Source: an uncultured Bacteroides sp.
GTDB lineage: Bacteria > Bacteroidota > Bacteroidia > Bacteroidales > Bacteroidaceae
Length of the DNA: 50,283 bases
Reading direction: 5' to 3'
Assembly: GCA_945607605.1 (NCBI GenBank)
Contig: CALYZE010000011.1
Coordinates: 1 to 50,283 of the forward strand
The position numbers were made by a program, and so were the translations under genes. Below, one piece after another: positions 7,255 through 12,760 of the stretch (its first letter is position 1; each line of letters starts with the position of its first letter). The notes under the pieces are model-generated. The model was not told the DNA's origin, searched no databases, and worked only from the letters and a program-made list of their open reading frames with translations.

Positions 7255-10101
7255 ATGAGAAACAACAGTCTGGCTAATCGCCACATTGGCATCAGTGAAC
7301 AAGAGGAGGTTCAGATGCTTCGCAAAATCGGAGTGGAAAGTCTGGATGAATTGGTTGACAAAACCCTTCCTGCCAACATTCGCCTCAAAGAACCGCTGAT
7401 CTTACCCGAAGCGATGTCGGAATATGAATTTGGACAGCATATGGCTAAGTTAGCTGCCAAAAACAAGCTCTATACCACCTACATTGGTATGGGTTGGTAC
7501 GACACCATTACTCCTGCCGTTATCCAACGAAATGTATTTGAAAACCCCGTGTGGTATACTTCGTATACACCTTATCAGACGGAAGTATCGCAAGGACGCT
7601 TGGAAGCATTGATGAACTACCAGACGGCTATCAGCGACCTCACCGGTATGCCTCTTGCCAACAGTTCGCTATTGGATGAAGCCACTGCCGCTGCCGAAGC
7701 CGTGACGATGATGCACGGGTTGCGTCCTCGTGACCTGCAAAAATCGGGTGCCAACGTGGTCTTAGTAGATGCAGAAATCTTCCCACAAACACTGGCTGTG
7801 ATGACCACACGCGCCATACCTCAGGGCATCGAACTACGTACCGGTAAGTTCTCTGAAATGGAATTTACGCCGGAGGTATTTGCCTGTGTATTGCAGTATC
7901 CCAACGCCAGCGGCAAGGTAGAAGACTACCGCGCTTTTGTGGAGAAGGCACATGCAGCCAACTGTAAAGTGGCGGTGGCAGCAGATATCTTAAGTTTGGC
8001 CCTACTCACTCCTCCGGGAGAATGGGGAGCGGACATCGTGTTTGGAAGTTCTCAACGACTGGGTACTCCTATCTTCTACGGCGGCCCATCGGCAGCCTAC
8101 TTTGCCACCCGTGATGAGTTTAAGCGAAACATGCCGGGACGCATCATCGGATGGTCGCAGGACAAGTACGGAAAGTCTTGTTACCGCATGGCACTGCAAA
8201 CCCGTGAGCAACACATCAAGCGTGAAAAAGCCACGTCCAACATCTGTACCGCACAAGCTTTGCTGGCTACCATGGCAGGTTTCTATACCGTTTATCACGG
8301 ACCGACAGGTATTCGAGCCATTGCCGAACGTATCCATAGCATTGCGGTGTATTTGGATAAGAATATCCGGAAACTGGGTTACGGTCAGGCGAATGAGCAT
8401 TACTTCGGTACGCTCCGTTTTACACTGCCCGACACCATATCGGCGCAACAAATACGCACCATCGCCTTAAGTAAGCAAGTAAACCTGCGTTACTTCAAAA
8501 ACGGAGATGTGGGCATGAGTATTGACGAAACCACCGACCTGACTGCTACGAATGTATTGCTTTCTATCTTTGCCATTGCTGCCGGAAAGGATTATGTGAA
8601 AGCCAACGAAATTGCAGAGAGCTGCAACCTACCCAAAGCGCTGAAACGCGAAAGTGCTTATCTGACCCACGAGGTGTTTAATAAGTATCACACGGAAACG
8701 GAGATGATGCGTTACATCAAGCGTTTGGATCGCAAGGATATCTCACTGGCTCACTCCATGATTTCTCTGGGTTCGTGCACCATGAAGCTGAATGCCGCTG
8801 CTGAAATGCTGCCACTCAGCCGTCCCGAACTGAACGGTATGCATCCGTTGGTTCCGGAAGATCAGGCGGAGGGTTATCGTGAACTGATTGACAACCTGAG
8901 TGAAGCGCTGAAAGTGATCACGGGCTTTGCCGGTGTGAGCCTGCAACCCAACTCCGGTGCTGCCGGTGAGTATGCCGGTTTGCGGGTCATTGGCAGTTAT
9001 CTGGAAAGTATCGGTCAAGGCCATCGCAACAAGGTATTGATTCCTGCTTCGGCACACGGAACCAACCCGGCTTCGGCTGTTCAGGCCGGTTATACTGCCG
9101 TGATCTGTGCTTGCGACGAGCAAGGCAATGTGGATATGGACGACCTTCGCGCCAAAGCGGAAGAGAACAAAGACGAGTTGGCTGCTCTGATGATTACCTA
9201 TCCTTCGACGCACGGCATCTTTGAAACGTCTATCGTGGAGATTTGCCAGATTATTCATGCGTGTGGCGCACAAGTCTATATGGACGGTGCCAACATGAAC
9301 GCACAGGTGGGCTTAACAAACCCCGGATTTATCGGAGCGGACGTTTGTCACCTCAATCTGCATAAAACCTTTGCCATTCCTCATGGAGGTGGCGGTCCGG
9401 GCGTAGGTCCGATCTGCGTGGCAGAGCATCTGGTTCCGTTCCTTCCGGGACATCAAATCTTTGGTTTTGTAACCAATCAGGTTTCCTCAGCTCCCTTTGG
9501 TAGTGCAGGAGTGCTGCCCGTTACTTATGGTTACATCCGTATGATGGGAATCGAGGGACTGACGCGTGCCACCAAGATTGCTTTGCTGAATGCCAATTAC
9601 CTGGCTTCGCATTTCAATGACACGTATGGTATTGTTTACCGTGGTGCCAATGGCTTTGTAGGCCATGAGATGATTCTGGAATGCCGCAAGCTGAACGAAG
9701 AAACCGGTATCACCGAAAATGACATTGCCAAACGTTTGATGGACTATGGCTATCATGCTCCTACCCTTTCCTTCCCGGTGCACGGTACATTGATGATTGA
9801 ACCCACAGAAAGTGAAAGTCTGGCTGAGCTGGACAACTTCGTTCACGTCATGCTGAGCATCTGGCAAGAGATTCAGGAAATTAAGGAGGGCAAAGCCGAC
9901 AAGGAGGATAATGTGCTGATTAATGCACCGCATCCCGAATATGAAGTAGTGGCCAATGAATGGAAGCATGGTTACTCACGCGAGAAAGCAGCTTATCCCA
10001 TAGAAAGTGTTCGCGAAAACAAGTTCTGGATTAACGTGGCACGCGTAGATAATACGCTGGGAGACCGCAAGCTGATGCCGACGTGTTACGGATGTTTTTG
10101 A
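7255..10101 (+). CDS. gcvP: Glycine dehydrogenase (decarboxylating), P-protein
   Basis: PLP-dependent P-protein of the glycine cleavage system, which decarboxylates glycine and passes the aminomethyl group to lipoylated GcvH. The 948 residues correspond to the full-length fused form with two PLP-transferase-like halves. The N-terminus has the typical RHIG start (ANRHIGISEQE), and the PLP lysine is Lys704 in LNLHKTFAIPHGGGGPG, preceding the glycine-rich loop. SAHGTNPASA and DGANMNAQVG are other recognisable family segments. The genes for GcvT and GcvH are not in the window. It is last in the plus-strand cluster, followed by a strong bidirectional terminator. Confidence 0.97.
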   Translation: MRNNSLANRHIGISEQEEVQMLRKIGVESLDELVDKTLPANIRLKEPLILPEAMSEYEFGQHMAKLAAKNKLYTTYIGMGWYDTITPAVIQRNVFENPVWYTSYTPYQTEVSQGRLEALMNYQTAISDLTGMPLANSSLLDEATAAAEAVTMMHGLRPRDLQKSGANVVLVDAEIFPQTLAVMTTRAIPQGIELRTGKFSEMEFTPEVFACVLQYPNASGKVEDYRAFVEKAHAANCKVAVAADILSLALLTPPGEWGADIVFGSSQRLGTPIFYGGPSAAYFATRDEFKRNMPGRIIGWSQDKYGKSCYRMALQTREQHIKREKATSNICTAQALLATMAGFYTVYHGPTGIRAIAERIHSIAVYLDKNIRKLGYGQANEHYFGTLRFTLPDTISAQQIRTIALSKQVNLRYFKNGDVGMSIDETTDLTATNVLLSIFAIAAGKDYVKANEIAESCNLPKALKRESAYLTHEVFNKYHTETEMMRYIKRLDRKDISLAHSMISLGSCTMKLNAAAEMLPLSRPELNGMHPLVPEDQAEGYRELIDNLSEALKVITGFAGVSLQPNSGAAGEYAGLRVIGSYLESIGQGHRNKVLIPASAHGTNPASAVQAGYTAVICACDEQGNVDMDDLRAKAEENKDELAALMITYPSTHGIFETSIVEICQIIHACGAQVYMDGANMNAQVGLTNPGFIGADVCHLNLHKTFAIPHGGGGPGVGPICVAEHLVPFLPGHQIFGFVTNQVSSAPFGSAGVLPVTYGYIRMMGIEGLTRATKIALLNANYLASHFNDTYGIVYRGANGFVGHEMILECRKLNEETGITENDIAKRLMDYGYHAPTLSFPVHGTLMIEPTESESLAELDNFVHVMLSIWQEIQEIKEGKADKEDNVLINAPHPEYEVVANEWKHGYSREKAAYPIESVRENKFWINVARVDNTLGDRKLMPTCYGCF

Positions 10102-10171
10102 GCATATAGCTATGAGATTGAAATTGAAGGAAAGGCTATTGACAGAATCCTGAGATTTCAATGAGGCCTAA

Positions 10172-10212
10172 AAAAGAGGATGTGTACAATATTTTTTTAC
10201 ACATCCTCTTTT
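10172..10212. terminator. Bidirectional terminator between gcvP and the HpaII-like gene
   Basis: Perfect inverted repeat with 15-base arms (10172-10186 and 10198-10212) and an 11-base loop. The arms end in A and T runs, so it can act as an intrinsic terminator on both strands, fitting the convergent genes on each side. Confidence 0.85.
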
Positions 10213-10241
10213 CGTTCGTTTTCTTTTCCCAATTCTCCACT

Positions 10242-11366
10242 TTATCTTTTTACCAATCCGATTTTTACGTTCAATTTGAAATACCAGACTCCGTTTTCAC
10301 GTTCGAGAAAACCGTACTTATCTTTATCCACAGAGCTTTTTTCAAGGCGGGTATTCTGATAAAGGAAGTCAGCAAAGGTTTGACGGTTGGACTTATGATA
10401 ACAAAGCACTTCACCGTTGCCATTGGTCAAAAGCATACCTTCTACGGCAGAATCCGTACCGTTATAGATCTTAGCAGGACGCATACCCAAGGCAAGTGCC
10501 AAGAGGAACTGCTTCATCTTGAATTCGTAAAATCCATGTTTCTTGATCAGCTCATCTTTAATCTTCAAAGGGTTCATCTCCTTGATACGGTCGGTGAGTT
10601 CGCTGATACGGGTAACTCCCTCTATATGCATGATGCGCACCATTTCGGCCAGCACACGAGGAAAATGAAGATCAATCATCTGCAAATTACAACGGAACAC
10701 ACGGTCGGCCACATCGGAATATTTCAGTACACCGCCTAAACGTTCAATCATTAACATTCGCTCGGCCACTTCTTCAGAAGATTCCGGCAAGGCATTGACT
10801 TTGTTGACCGTGGGCACGGCAAACTTAACTCCGCTCTGTTCCAATTTCAGATTGGCTGTACGTCCTCCGTCGAGTAAAGGATTCATGGGACTCAGTCGGC
10901 AACGGACACAGAAACCGGTCAAAGGAGCTTCTGCATGCCAAAAGGCGACGGAAAAATCGGTACGGTCCTCAGTCTTTGCCTCCAAGTCATAGATATGGAT
11001 AGCATCCAGAAAAGCTTCCAACCCTTCGGTCACTTCCACTTCCTCACCGGGAACATTCTTCAGCAAGTGCAACATCAGTTCGGCTGCGTCATTGAAATCC
11101 GCACGAGGAATGGAGAGTGCTTCCTGATCGGAGGGTGTAAAACTACCGTCCTTCTCCAACACACCGCCGACCATGCGTATTTCTTCTTTTTCAATGTAAT
11201 AACGGCGGGTTCCGTCATGTTCTTCTCTTTGTATCAGCGCAACGGGCCAATATTGGTTTTCTTCCTTTTGAGCCTTTGAGGTACCCATAGATACCTTTCC
11301 TTCTGCCAGTAAATGAAAGAATGTATAGAGTTCGCCTAACTCGCGTTTGGTAGCTTTAAATGCCAT
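10242..11366 (-). CDS. HpaII-family restriction endonuclease homologue (orphan)
   Basis: A 374-residue protein resembling the HpaII restriction endonuclease family (HpaII cuts CCGG). The N-terminal stretch (LGELYTFFHLLAEGKV, later YWPVALIQREE) matches the family's opening block. The central block TDFSVAFWHAEAP followed by TGFCVRCRLSPMNPLLDGG (Asp137 to about 169) fits the family's GFSIKS...TLLN block around the nuclease core. The Lys usually found in SIKS appears to be Arg155 here, so cleavage activity is uncertain. No DNA methyltransferase gene is nearby, unusual for an active type II enzyme. Starts upstream to 11399 are possible, but a TATCTTTG promoter box overlaps that point, so the ATG at 11366 is preferred. 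Assignment is from memory of family motifs. Confidence 0.58.
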   Translation of the reverse strand: MAFKATKRELGELYTFFHLLAEGKVSMGTSKAQKEENQYWPVALIQREEHDGTRRYYIEKEEIRMVGGVLEKDGSFTPSDQEALSIPRADFNDAAELMLHLLKNVPGEEVEVTEGLEAFLDAIHIYDLEAKTEDRTDFSVAFWHAEAPLTGFCVRCRLSPMNPLLDGGRTANLKLEQSGVKFAVPTVNKVNALPESSEEVAERMLMIERLGGVLKYSDVADRVFRCNLQMIDLHFPRVLAEMVRIMHIEGVTRISELTDRIKEMNPLKIKDELIKKHGFYEFKMKQFLLALALGMRPAKIYNGTDSAVEGMLLTNGNGEVLCYHKSNRQTFADFLYQNTRLEKSSVDKDKYGFLERENGVWYFKLNVKIGLVKR

Positions 11367-11396: not shown

Positions 11397-11404
11397 CAAA
11401 GATA
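11397..11404 (-). promoter_or_regulatory. -7 promoter box for the HpaII-like gene
   Basis: Reads TATCTTTG on the minus strand, matching TAnnTTTG, 30 bases upstream of the ATG at 11366. This indicates separate transcription from the upstream YigZ-family gene. Confidence 0.55.
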
Positions 11405-11413
11405 CGCAAAATA

Positions 11414-12016
11414 TTACGCTTCATCAAAGCGTAAGGTCTCTACTTTTTCCAACCGTGCCAGCAGTTTAGGCATCATCGACTGCCGAATGCGAAGTGTCAT
11501 ACGGCAATCCATATCGTACGACTGTTCCAACATCTCCGGTTCTTCTTCTTTTACGATGCGCATGACATCATTCATAAAGGGGTATTCAAAAAAAATGGTC
11601 ACGGTTTCATCCACCGTCTTTTCAATCAGTTCGGCAGCAGCAATGGCTTCGGCAGCTGCTGCTTTATAAGCAACAATCAGTCCGCTTGTACCCAGCTTGA
11701 TGCCTCCGAAATAACGGACTACGATAATCAGAATATCAGTCAGTTCGTTGGAATTGATTTGTCCCAGAATGGGTTTGCCAGCCGTTCCAGACGGTTCACC
11801 GTTGTCGTTGGCACGAAAATCTTTTCGCTCGTGCCCCAACATATAGGCATAGCATACGTGGCGGGCATCATAATATTTCTTCTGATAGGTGTCCAGATGC
11901 GCCTTTACTTCTTCTACTGTCTGCACCGGCAAAGCAATCGCAATAAATTTACTACGTTTCTCCGTATAAATGCTCTCGGATGCTGCAACAATGGTTTTAT
12001 AGGTATCTTCGCTCAT
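11414..12016 (-). CDS. YigZ/IMPACT family protein
   Basis: A 200-residue protein with the conserved N-terminal UPF0029/IMPACT block: KRSKFIAIALPV (about 20-31), then DARHVCYAYMLG, a DNGEPSGTAGKPIL signature near 72-85 and VVRYFGGIKLGTSGLIVAY near 99-117. The C-terminal third (about 135-200) fits the DUF1949 domain. The eukaryotic relative IMPACT regulates GCN2; the bacterial role is unsettled, though a ribosome- or translation-linked function has been suggested. It has its own promoter box upstream. Confidence 0.93.
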   Translation of the reverse strand: MSEDTYKTIVAASESIYTEKRSKFIAIALPVQTVEEVKAHLDTYQKKYYDARHVCYAYMLGHERKDFRANDNGEPSGTAGKPILGQINSNELTDILIIVVRYFGGIKLGTSGLIVAYKAAAAEAIAAAELIEKTVDETVTIFFEYPFMNDVMRIVKEEEPEMLEQSYDMDCRMTLRIRQSMMPKLLARLEKVETLRFDEA

Positions 12017-12050: not shown

Positions 12051-12760
12051 TTATTTTTTTAGGCGACGCATACTCTTTGTACGGAAGTGGAAGGAATCAT
12101 AACAGATCCCTACTACATCGGCAACGAGCCAACCGATGGGAATTGACCACCAAATACCCTTTATTCCAATGCTCGGTACAGACGCAAGCCCATACGAGAG
12201 GATGACGCGCGTACCCAACGATAGCAACGTCAGTACGAGCGACATGCCCGGCTTGCGAATAGCTCTGTAATAGCCGTACAGCAAAAACAGTATGCCGATG
12301 CCGCAATAGAAAGCACCCTCAATGCGCAGGTATTCTACACCGATAGCCAGAATCTCTGTTTCAGACGGACGAATAAATATCAGCATAAGTGGTTCGGCAA
12401 AAACAAAGACAAGAGCAGAAACATCAGAATACCCAAGTTCATGACCGACTGTTGGATGCAGGTAAGTGTAGAGAAGGAGGCAATTTCTTTCAGACAAGAG
12501 CGGTCAAAGTGTCTATCTTCCCGGTGCCATCGAAGCTCCGGCCGTTTCTTATAAGTAAACAGCATAATACCCAAGCCGGCAACTCCCTGTGCAATGACAG
12601 TGGCAGCAGCTGCTCCTTCAACTCCCCACCCTAATGAAAGGATAAAATAGACATCGAGTGCCACATTCAGCACAACGGACACAGCCAGAAACCGGAGGGG
12701 AGTGAAGCGTAATAGAGTGCTTGTTATACCTCCTTGAGTAAGATCTCCCGTTCGTAGCAT
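12051..12760 (-). pseudogene. MATE-family efflux transporter remnant (deleted and frameshifted)
   Basis: Two overlapping minus-strand frames carry pieces of one MATE drug/sodium antiporter. The upstream frame (12760-12380) begins with a normal N-terminal segment, LRTGDLTQGGITSTLLRF, then jumps directly to what is usually the middle of the protein (VVLNVALDVYFILSLGWGVEGAA). The downstream frame (about 12420-12051) gives the C-terminal helices (VEYLRIEGAFYCGIGILFLLYGYYRAIRKPGMS, ending KSMRRLKK). Intact MATE genes are about 1.3 kb; here only about 0.7 kb remains. At least one early in-frame deletion, a second deletion and a frameshift near 12380-12420 explain this. It is almost certainly non-functional. 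Confidence 0.85.

Follow-up and report, generated by a model that had tools for sequence, protein, structure and literature searches.

The window analysed here, a 50,283-nt stretch of an uncultured Bacteroides sp. genome (GCA_945607605.1, contig CALYZE010000011.1, positions 1–50,283), carries an intact gene for a 374-residue protein of the HpaII restriction endonuclease family that has neither a methylase partner nor the lysine expected in its active site. We consider it likely that this is a domesticated HpaII-fold protein, no longer capable of cleavage, which is present in most sampled species of the genus and probably binds nucleic acid. The computations show that the protein belongs to the family, has no methylase, lies in a branch where Lys155 is lost throughout and new basic residues have become fixed, and is encoded by a gene that is under purifying selection and descends with its chromosomal neighbours; the gene is presumably expressed. 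An earlier reading made from the letters alone (the sequence-only reading) had assigned the gene to the HpaII family and called its frame intact, and both statements stand: in a Pfam search with the window protein, the RE_HpaII profile (PF09561) matched over its full length (359/359 positions, 1–359) at 449 bits, against a curated cut-off for membership of 25, and the open reading frame begins with an ATG at 11366, an alternative in-frame start (TTG) lying at 11399.

Loss of the putative active-site lysine in an unlinked branch

Matches were found in 116/149 genomes of the genus, 74/201 of the family, 21/295 of the order and 11/395 of the phylum, these samples overlapping; a scan of genome contigs gave 44 HpaII-family loci, viral contigs gave 13, and a plasmid source gave seven records, of which three were fetched. 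The 100 stretches fetched represent chosen hits and not every match, and once pieces shorter than 300 aa and exact duplicates had been removed, 134 distinct proteins were left. Proteins with a gene resembling two annotated cytosine methylases no more than 800 bp away formed the methylase-linked, or restriction–modification (RM), group (37 proteins); 97 were unlinked, including two (L035 and L157) that start near a contig end, where an upstream methylase is possible. A further unlinked protein (L154), which is cut by a contig end and has RM residues at the columns it covers, was set aside. The other 96 fall into clade A (89 proteins, the window's included, all from the window's family) and clade B (seven proteins from other families of the order: L152, L155, L156, L157, L158, L159 and L160). 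Profiles of clade A and the RM group, built from the very sequences that were scored, split the two kinds without overlap, the clade A minus RM margin ranging from +267 to +442 bits in 89/89 clade A proteins and from −291 to −230 bits in 37/37 RM proteins, with +34 to +90 bits in 7/7 clade B proteins.

That the lysine expected in a GFSIKS-like block is Arg155 in the window protein (GFCVRCRL) had been pointed out in the sequence-only reading, and is confirmed by the alignment. Position 155 is Lys in 37/37 RM proteins (block GFSIKS in 29, GYSIKS in six, GFSVKS and EFSIKS in one each) and in 0/89 clade A proteins, which have Arg (70), Tyr (9), Gln (5), Phe (2), Cys (1), His (1) or Leu (1); the window protein therefore lacks the lysine within the GFSIKS block by which a Type II RM enzyme would be recognised. 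Arg is hard to see as a mere substitute for Lys when Tyr, Gln, Phe, Cys, His and Leu occur at the position as well. Asp137 is present in 37/37 RM and 87/89 clade A proteins, and Glu12 in 37/37 and 86/89; judging by this conservation in the alignment, the scaffold is retained in clade A. Other RM-invariant residues have changed there: N6 to T in 81/89 proteins, K135 to R in 86, N166 to D in 87 and Q368 to K in 87. T163 is likewise replaced, and at position 153 Ser remains in 11 proteins, N being found in 35, R in 16 and another residue in 27, while residues such as R54, R169, K174 and K268 are fixed in 89/89. Compared with methylase-linked HpaII, the window protein has Asp137, Glu12, N191, N227, D232 and G294 in common but is without a methylase gene and has Lys155, N166, T163 and Q368 replaced; clade A differs, too, in descending with its chromosomal neighbours in Bacteroides.

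The predicted structure of the window protein (mean predicted local distance difference test score, pLDDT, 92.8; predicted template modelling score, pTM, 0.90) has Asp137 just ahead of strand 138–142, residue 155 at the end of the strand that follows (150–156) and Glu12 within helix 7–22. The placing of Asp137 and residue 155 is as expected for a PD-(D/E)XK site, in line with the position predicted for Arg155 in the sequence-only reading; this arrangement in the model and the invariance in the RM group suggest that residue 155, with Asp137 and Glu12, is catalytic in the HpaII family. Sequence matches between the window protein and solved structures were no better than chance level. The best PDB match was MspI (1sa3) for the models of both the window protein and a methylase-linked homologue, with modest Z-scores and about 10% identity, and HinP1I (2fkc, 1ynm) was listed for the homologue's model but was not among the rows for the window model. 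Besides this low identity to MspI and HinP1I, the window protein differs in length (374 aa vs a 262-residue chain) and in having Arg at the Lys column. Foldseek's PDB matches to the window model were mainly sliding clamps (best E 0.086, root-mean-square deviation >9) and were rejected as meaningless.

Clade B has Lys155 in 6/7 and Asp137 in 6/7 proteins, and has lost Glu12 in 7/7 (K in three, R in two, H and Q in one each). In a tree of 98 rows, made up of all RM proteins, clade B, L154, all clade A proteins not beside yigZ and, from the yigZ-adjacent ones, those from later loci plus every fourth of the remainder, clades A and B lay together on one side of a branch with a Shimodaira–Hasegawa-like approximate likelihood ratio (SH-aLRT) support of 100, the support for A being 100 and for B 99. 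A separate tree, also of 98 rows but with a different selection that lacked clade B, placed 18 RM and 80 clade A proteins on opposite sides of a branch with support 100. Both were made by a quick method and are unrooted with long branches, and a single domestication of A and B is the simplest reading of them, not proof. The sequence-only reading had held that a methylase gene adjacent in relatives would count against it. Such genes do exist, yet they belong to the other branch, where Lys155 is retained (37/37, branch support 100), and the finding therefore supports that reading.

Proposed function and competing explanations

We propose that a CCGG-type HpaII-family endonuclease was left without its methylase partner in some ancestral member of the Bacteroidales, and that the former endonuclease gene was then domesticated, becoming chromosomal and vertically inherited. 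Because the catalytic lysine of the PD-(D/E)XK-like site has been replaced (by Arg155 in the window protein), the present protein would not cut CCGG. Nucleic-acid binding would have been retained, most likely in the form of a site- or structure-specific, cleavage-dead DNA binder, and its specificity would be altered because the RM-invariant residues N166, Q368 and T163 have been replaced as well. The loss of cleavage, which the sequence-only reading had listed as an option, is supported by the missing lysine throughout clade A.

Binding by clade A, for which we regard the case as evenly balanced, finds its main support in newly fixed basic residues. At 20 positions a basic residue is found in 95% or more of clade A and in fewer than half of RM proteins, and 12 positions are acidic by the same rule; 12 of the basic and five of the acidic positions also hold in at least 6/7 clade B proteins, the shared basic ones being 169, 174, 181, 215, 222, 237, 244, 268, 270, 276, 296 and 356. 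K268, for example, is found in 89/89 clade A and 7/7 clade B proteins vs 5/37 RM proteins, and R169 in 89/89 and 7/7 vs Arg in 2/37, with Lys in 16 RM proteins. The overall charge weighs against the binding part of the proposal, the median net charge of clade A being slightly more negative than that of the RM group (−5 vs −2). Thus a role other than restriction, such as the DNA binding entertained in the sequence-only reading, is supported as regards the change of role, and DNA binding itself is suggested. A broader version, which we find possible though rather doubtful, is that one ancient domestication in the Bacteroidales created a new class of cleavage-dead, sequence-specific chromosomal DNA-binding proteins (regulators or architectural proteins), whose sister branches broke Lys155 or Glu12 and have basic residues in common.

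If the domestication reading is true, most sampled species of the genus carry a gene whose annotation makes it an active restriction enzyme (REase_II by PADLOC; 'HpaII family restriction endonuclease' for B. finegoldii) but whose product is no defence enzyme. It would then provide a well-delimited natural case in which a restriction enzyme has turned into a different kind of chromosomal gene, and one for which methylase-linked relatives, two sister branches with distinct active-site losses and four genomes with both kinds are available. It would also give a possible answer to the question, dating from 2012, of why solitary HpaII-like enzymes spare their hosts.

The accessible text of Ershova et al. 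2012 (PMC3488263) describes eleven orthologous HpaII-like restriction endonucleases (REs) of Bacteroides, five of them paired with a candidate methylase at a separate place and six lacking one, cites REBASE for the lack of RE activity in one Bacteroides HpaII-like protein, BthVORF1149P, and suggests a change of function for such solitary enzymes. Its orthologous groups 6, 7 and 37, BthVORF1149P included, are, like clade A, solitary and orthologous across Bacteroides, and the window protein, an HpaII-like RE of this genus without a cognate methylase and with orthologues across species, belongs to the class so described. The eleven proteins are very probably clade A proteins. In that text, active-site mutation is named just as a general possibility for solitary REs, and the lost lysine, the split from methylase-linked HpaII, the second unlinked clade and the constraint are not given for these proteins, which number 11 vs 89 distinct ones in clade A. 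The literature searches brought up no other paper on these proteins and no published account of the lost lysine, the RM split, clade B or the function, REBASE, supplementary tables and most subscription papers lying beyond the search; two further hits were set aside, since their accessible text has HpaII as a reagent only (PMC13114119) or mentions restriction for cloning only (PMC11535334). The solitary state and one inactive case were, then, already known in 2012, and the lost lysine, the two branches and their extent are additions.

The foremost competitor, which we judge unlikely, is an active nuclease with another substrate, in which Arg155 (or Tyr or Gln) does the work of Lys on modified DNA in the manner of a Type IV enzyme, or in nicking or repair. 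It would accord with the near-complete retention of Asp137 and Glu12 and with purifying selection on the whole protein, and Glu, Gln or Asn replaces Lys in some active restriction endonucleases, MspI among them, according to the accessible part of PMC4081073. Position 155 is nevertheless occupied by R, Y, Q, F, C, H or L, a diversity unlike that of a catalytic residue; the RM-invariant S153, N166, T163 and Q368 are mostly changed too, sister clade B breaks a different part of the same site, and the Bacteroides relative listed as inactive in REBASE, as cited in the text of PMC3488263, speaks for loss of activity. For a Type IV nuclease in particular, the absence of a methylase would fit, but the putative catalytic site is altered.

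Considerably less probable is a protective decoy, a dead enzyme that would sit on CCGG, or pair with invading HpaII-type enzymes, and so block incoming restriction. Both kinds do meet in single cells: G007, G126, G712 and G653 hold full-length clade A and full-length methylase-linked copies, and in G135, G177, G041 and G652 the RM-type second copies are fragments, each accompanied by a whole clade A gene. Against this, most clade A genus genomes have no second RM-like match, clade A has replaced RM-invariant residues that may read CCGG, and MspI, the nearest fold, is termed monomeric in the title of a reference in PMC4081073 (accessible part), which disfavours pairing. The fragment loci of the methylase type are L083, L117, L082 (12091–12819) and L168. 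RM-like second copies in genus genomes stand apart from clade A at 24–34% identity to the window protein, with the exception of G693 (C2, C38), where the HpaII-family gene is found only as pieces on two contigs, at 75% and 51–59% identity, perhaps two decayed copies.

Methylase absence, constraint and descent

An active enzyme whose CCGG sites are guarded by a solitary methylase encoded elsewhere has been proposed for 5/11 Bacteroides copies in PMC3488263, the accessible text of which lists such pairs; for clade A we hold it to be highly improbable. The window's genome (G000, 2.65 Mb, 98.5% complete) gave no match to PF00145 (C5-cytosine methylase), for which 10/14 control genomes were positive. 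Its one match to PF01555, a family that includes N4-cytosine methylases, scored 23.1 bits, below the cut-off of 26.7, and was rejected as a methylase (L128, G000:C93:1975-2091), since it lies in a TRAM-domain protein for which tRNA (Uracil-5-)-methyltransferase scores highest in Pfam, at 72.7 bits. The search was limited to these two families, adenine methylase families being left out because CCGG, which consists of C and G only, cannot be protected by an adenine methylase. The cytosine methylase (C5 or N4) of a Type II RM system is thus found neither beside the gene nor elsewhere in the genome, and the methylase elsewhere that the sequence-only reading had allowed for is very unlikely, although these searches would miss one that belongs to a family not yet described or is encoded in the 1.5% of the genome that the assembly lacks. 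Nor is CCGG avoided in the window, with 216 sites observed vs 121 expected from base composition. Given these sites and a genome without a cytosine methylase, it is not plausible that this cell contains an enzyme actively cutting CCGG, and the 216 unprotected sites speak against CCGG cleavage by the window protein. Among 80 other PF09561-positive genomes, 55 have at least one PF00145 match, as a separated system would require, but 25 have none (16 of these 25 within the good-quality set of 64), and Lys155 is lost in 89/89 clade A proteins. GGCC occurs 74 times in the window, in which CCGG is over-represented.

The claim that the gene is maintained, made in the sequence-only reading, is borne out by constraint and by descent with neighbours. 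The ratio of non-synonymous to synonymous substitution rates (dN/dS) had a median of 0.064 (range 0.025–0.156) over 31 close pairs (0.05<dS<1) of unlinked proteins without Lys155; methylase-linked copies offered no pair within these dS limits, and hence no dN/dS comparison. Protein distances at 33 distinct loci correlated with gcvP distances at r 0.73 and with yigZ distances at r 0.75, about as well as gcvP and yigZ did with each other (0.72), and in each case 0/2000 permutations reached as high a value. With the window protein as query, a clade A-like copy of at least 54% identity was found in the 116 genus genomes and in 79/89 of those of good quality, a survey across Bacteroides that the sequence-only reading had advised; 111/116 copies are full length without a stop, those of G616, G639, G693 and G695 being partial and that of G694 having stops, and 10/89 good genomes have no match. 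Outside the family PF09561 is sporadic, with 7 further genomes in the phylum sample and 17 in the order sample, none of them clade A among those fetched. A search of viral contigs with the window protein found no phage-borne clade A relatives; methylase-linked HpaII copies are present among the 13 viral loci, 9/9 of the distinct full-length ones analysed being methylase-linked. A decaying, functionless relic retained by chance, the least probable explanation, could point to the lost active site and methylase, the ten good genomes without a match and the broken copies in G639, G693 and G694, but is already contradicted by the low dN/dS, the 111 full-length copies and the residues fixed in 89/89 proteins, such as R54, R169, K174 and K268.

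Gene neighbourhood, promoter-like box and hairpin

Positions of the gene, its active-site codons and surrounding features are collected in Table 1.

Table 1. Features at the HpaII-family locus, in coordinates of the window.
Feature	Position	Strand	Basis or remark
HpaII-family protein, 374 aa, clade A	10242..11366	-	Pfam RE_HpaII 449 bits; model pLDDT 92.8, pTM 0.90
Codon of Arg155; column is Lys in 37/37 methylase-linked relatives	10902..10904	-	alignment
Codon of Asp137, invariant acidic residue of the putative PD-(D/E)XK site, kept	10956..10958	-	alignment
Codon of Glu12, N-terminal helix, kept in window protein; lost in 7/7 clade B	11331..11333	-	alignment, model
Promoter-like -33/-7 box, Bacteroides type, TTTG-N20-TATCTTTG	11397..11428	-	
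Terminator-like hairpin, 16-bp stem	10171..10213	-	-21.1 kcal/mol, z -7.2
yigZ	11414-12016	-	
gcvP	7255-10101	+	
Broken MATE gene	12051-12760	-	one piece matches Pfam MatE (33.8 bits), the second does not

The sequence-only reading had credited the gene with its own promoter box and terminator. Both are present, the hairpin lying past the stop codon, between the HpaII-family gene and the converging gcvP, but the box is matched once in the window vs a chance mean of 0.90, and only its position, 30 bp ahead of the ATG, speaks for it as a promoter. The -33/-7 pattern used is what we take to be the Bacteroides-type consensus. Upstream of 87 clade A genes, the -7 box alone was found in 35 vs 8.1 in shuffles, and the full -33/-7 box in three vs 0.2.

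Along the minus strand the gene order is serC, serA, DUF1015, a putative FKBP-like gene (our own label), the broken MATE gene, yigZ and the HpaII-family gene, with rsmG, an MBL hydrolase gene and gcvP converging on it from the opposite strand; other names were taken from the annotated B. finegoldii record. The neighbours given in the sequence-only reading (YigZ, a MATE remnant and gcvP, with no methyltransferase among them) are thus the ones found. The MATE gene beside yigZ consists of two overlapping pieces, and some relatives have longer open copies (up to 457 aa) near the same locus. The B. finegoldii record has the same order minus the FKBP-like and MATE genes, with C39 peptidase and nitroreductase genes beside the HpaII-family gene. 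Copies with a yigZ gene within 2 kb were labelled 'core' (48 copies), and their neighbours recur independently of that label (gcvP 30, rsmG 27, DUF1015 27, serC 23), many loci ending before these genes. Clustering of 743 flanking genes around 80 clade A copies revealed no constant partner gene: yigZ upstream and nitroreductase downstream are common in Bacteroides, and clade A copies elsewhere have different neighbours. One locus (L127, NZ_OY725969.1), recorded as B. finegoldii 'plasmid 67', carries the serC–gcvP–rsmG neighbourhood and seems to be a chromosomal fragment that was deposited as a plasmid.
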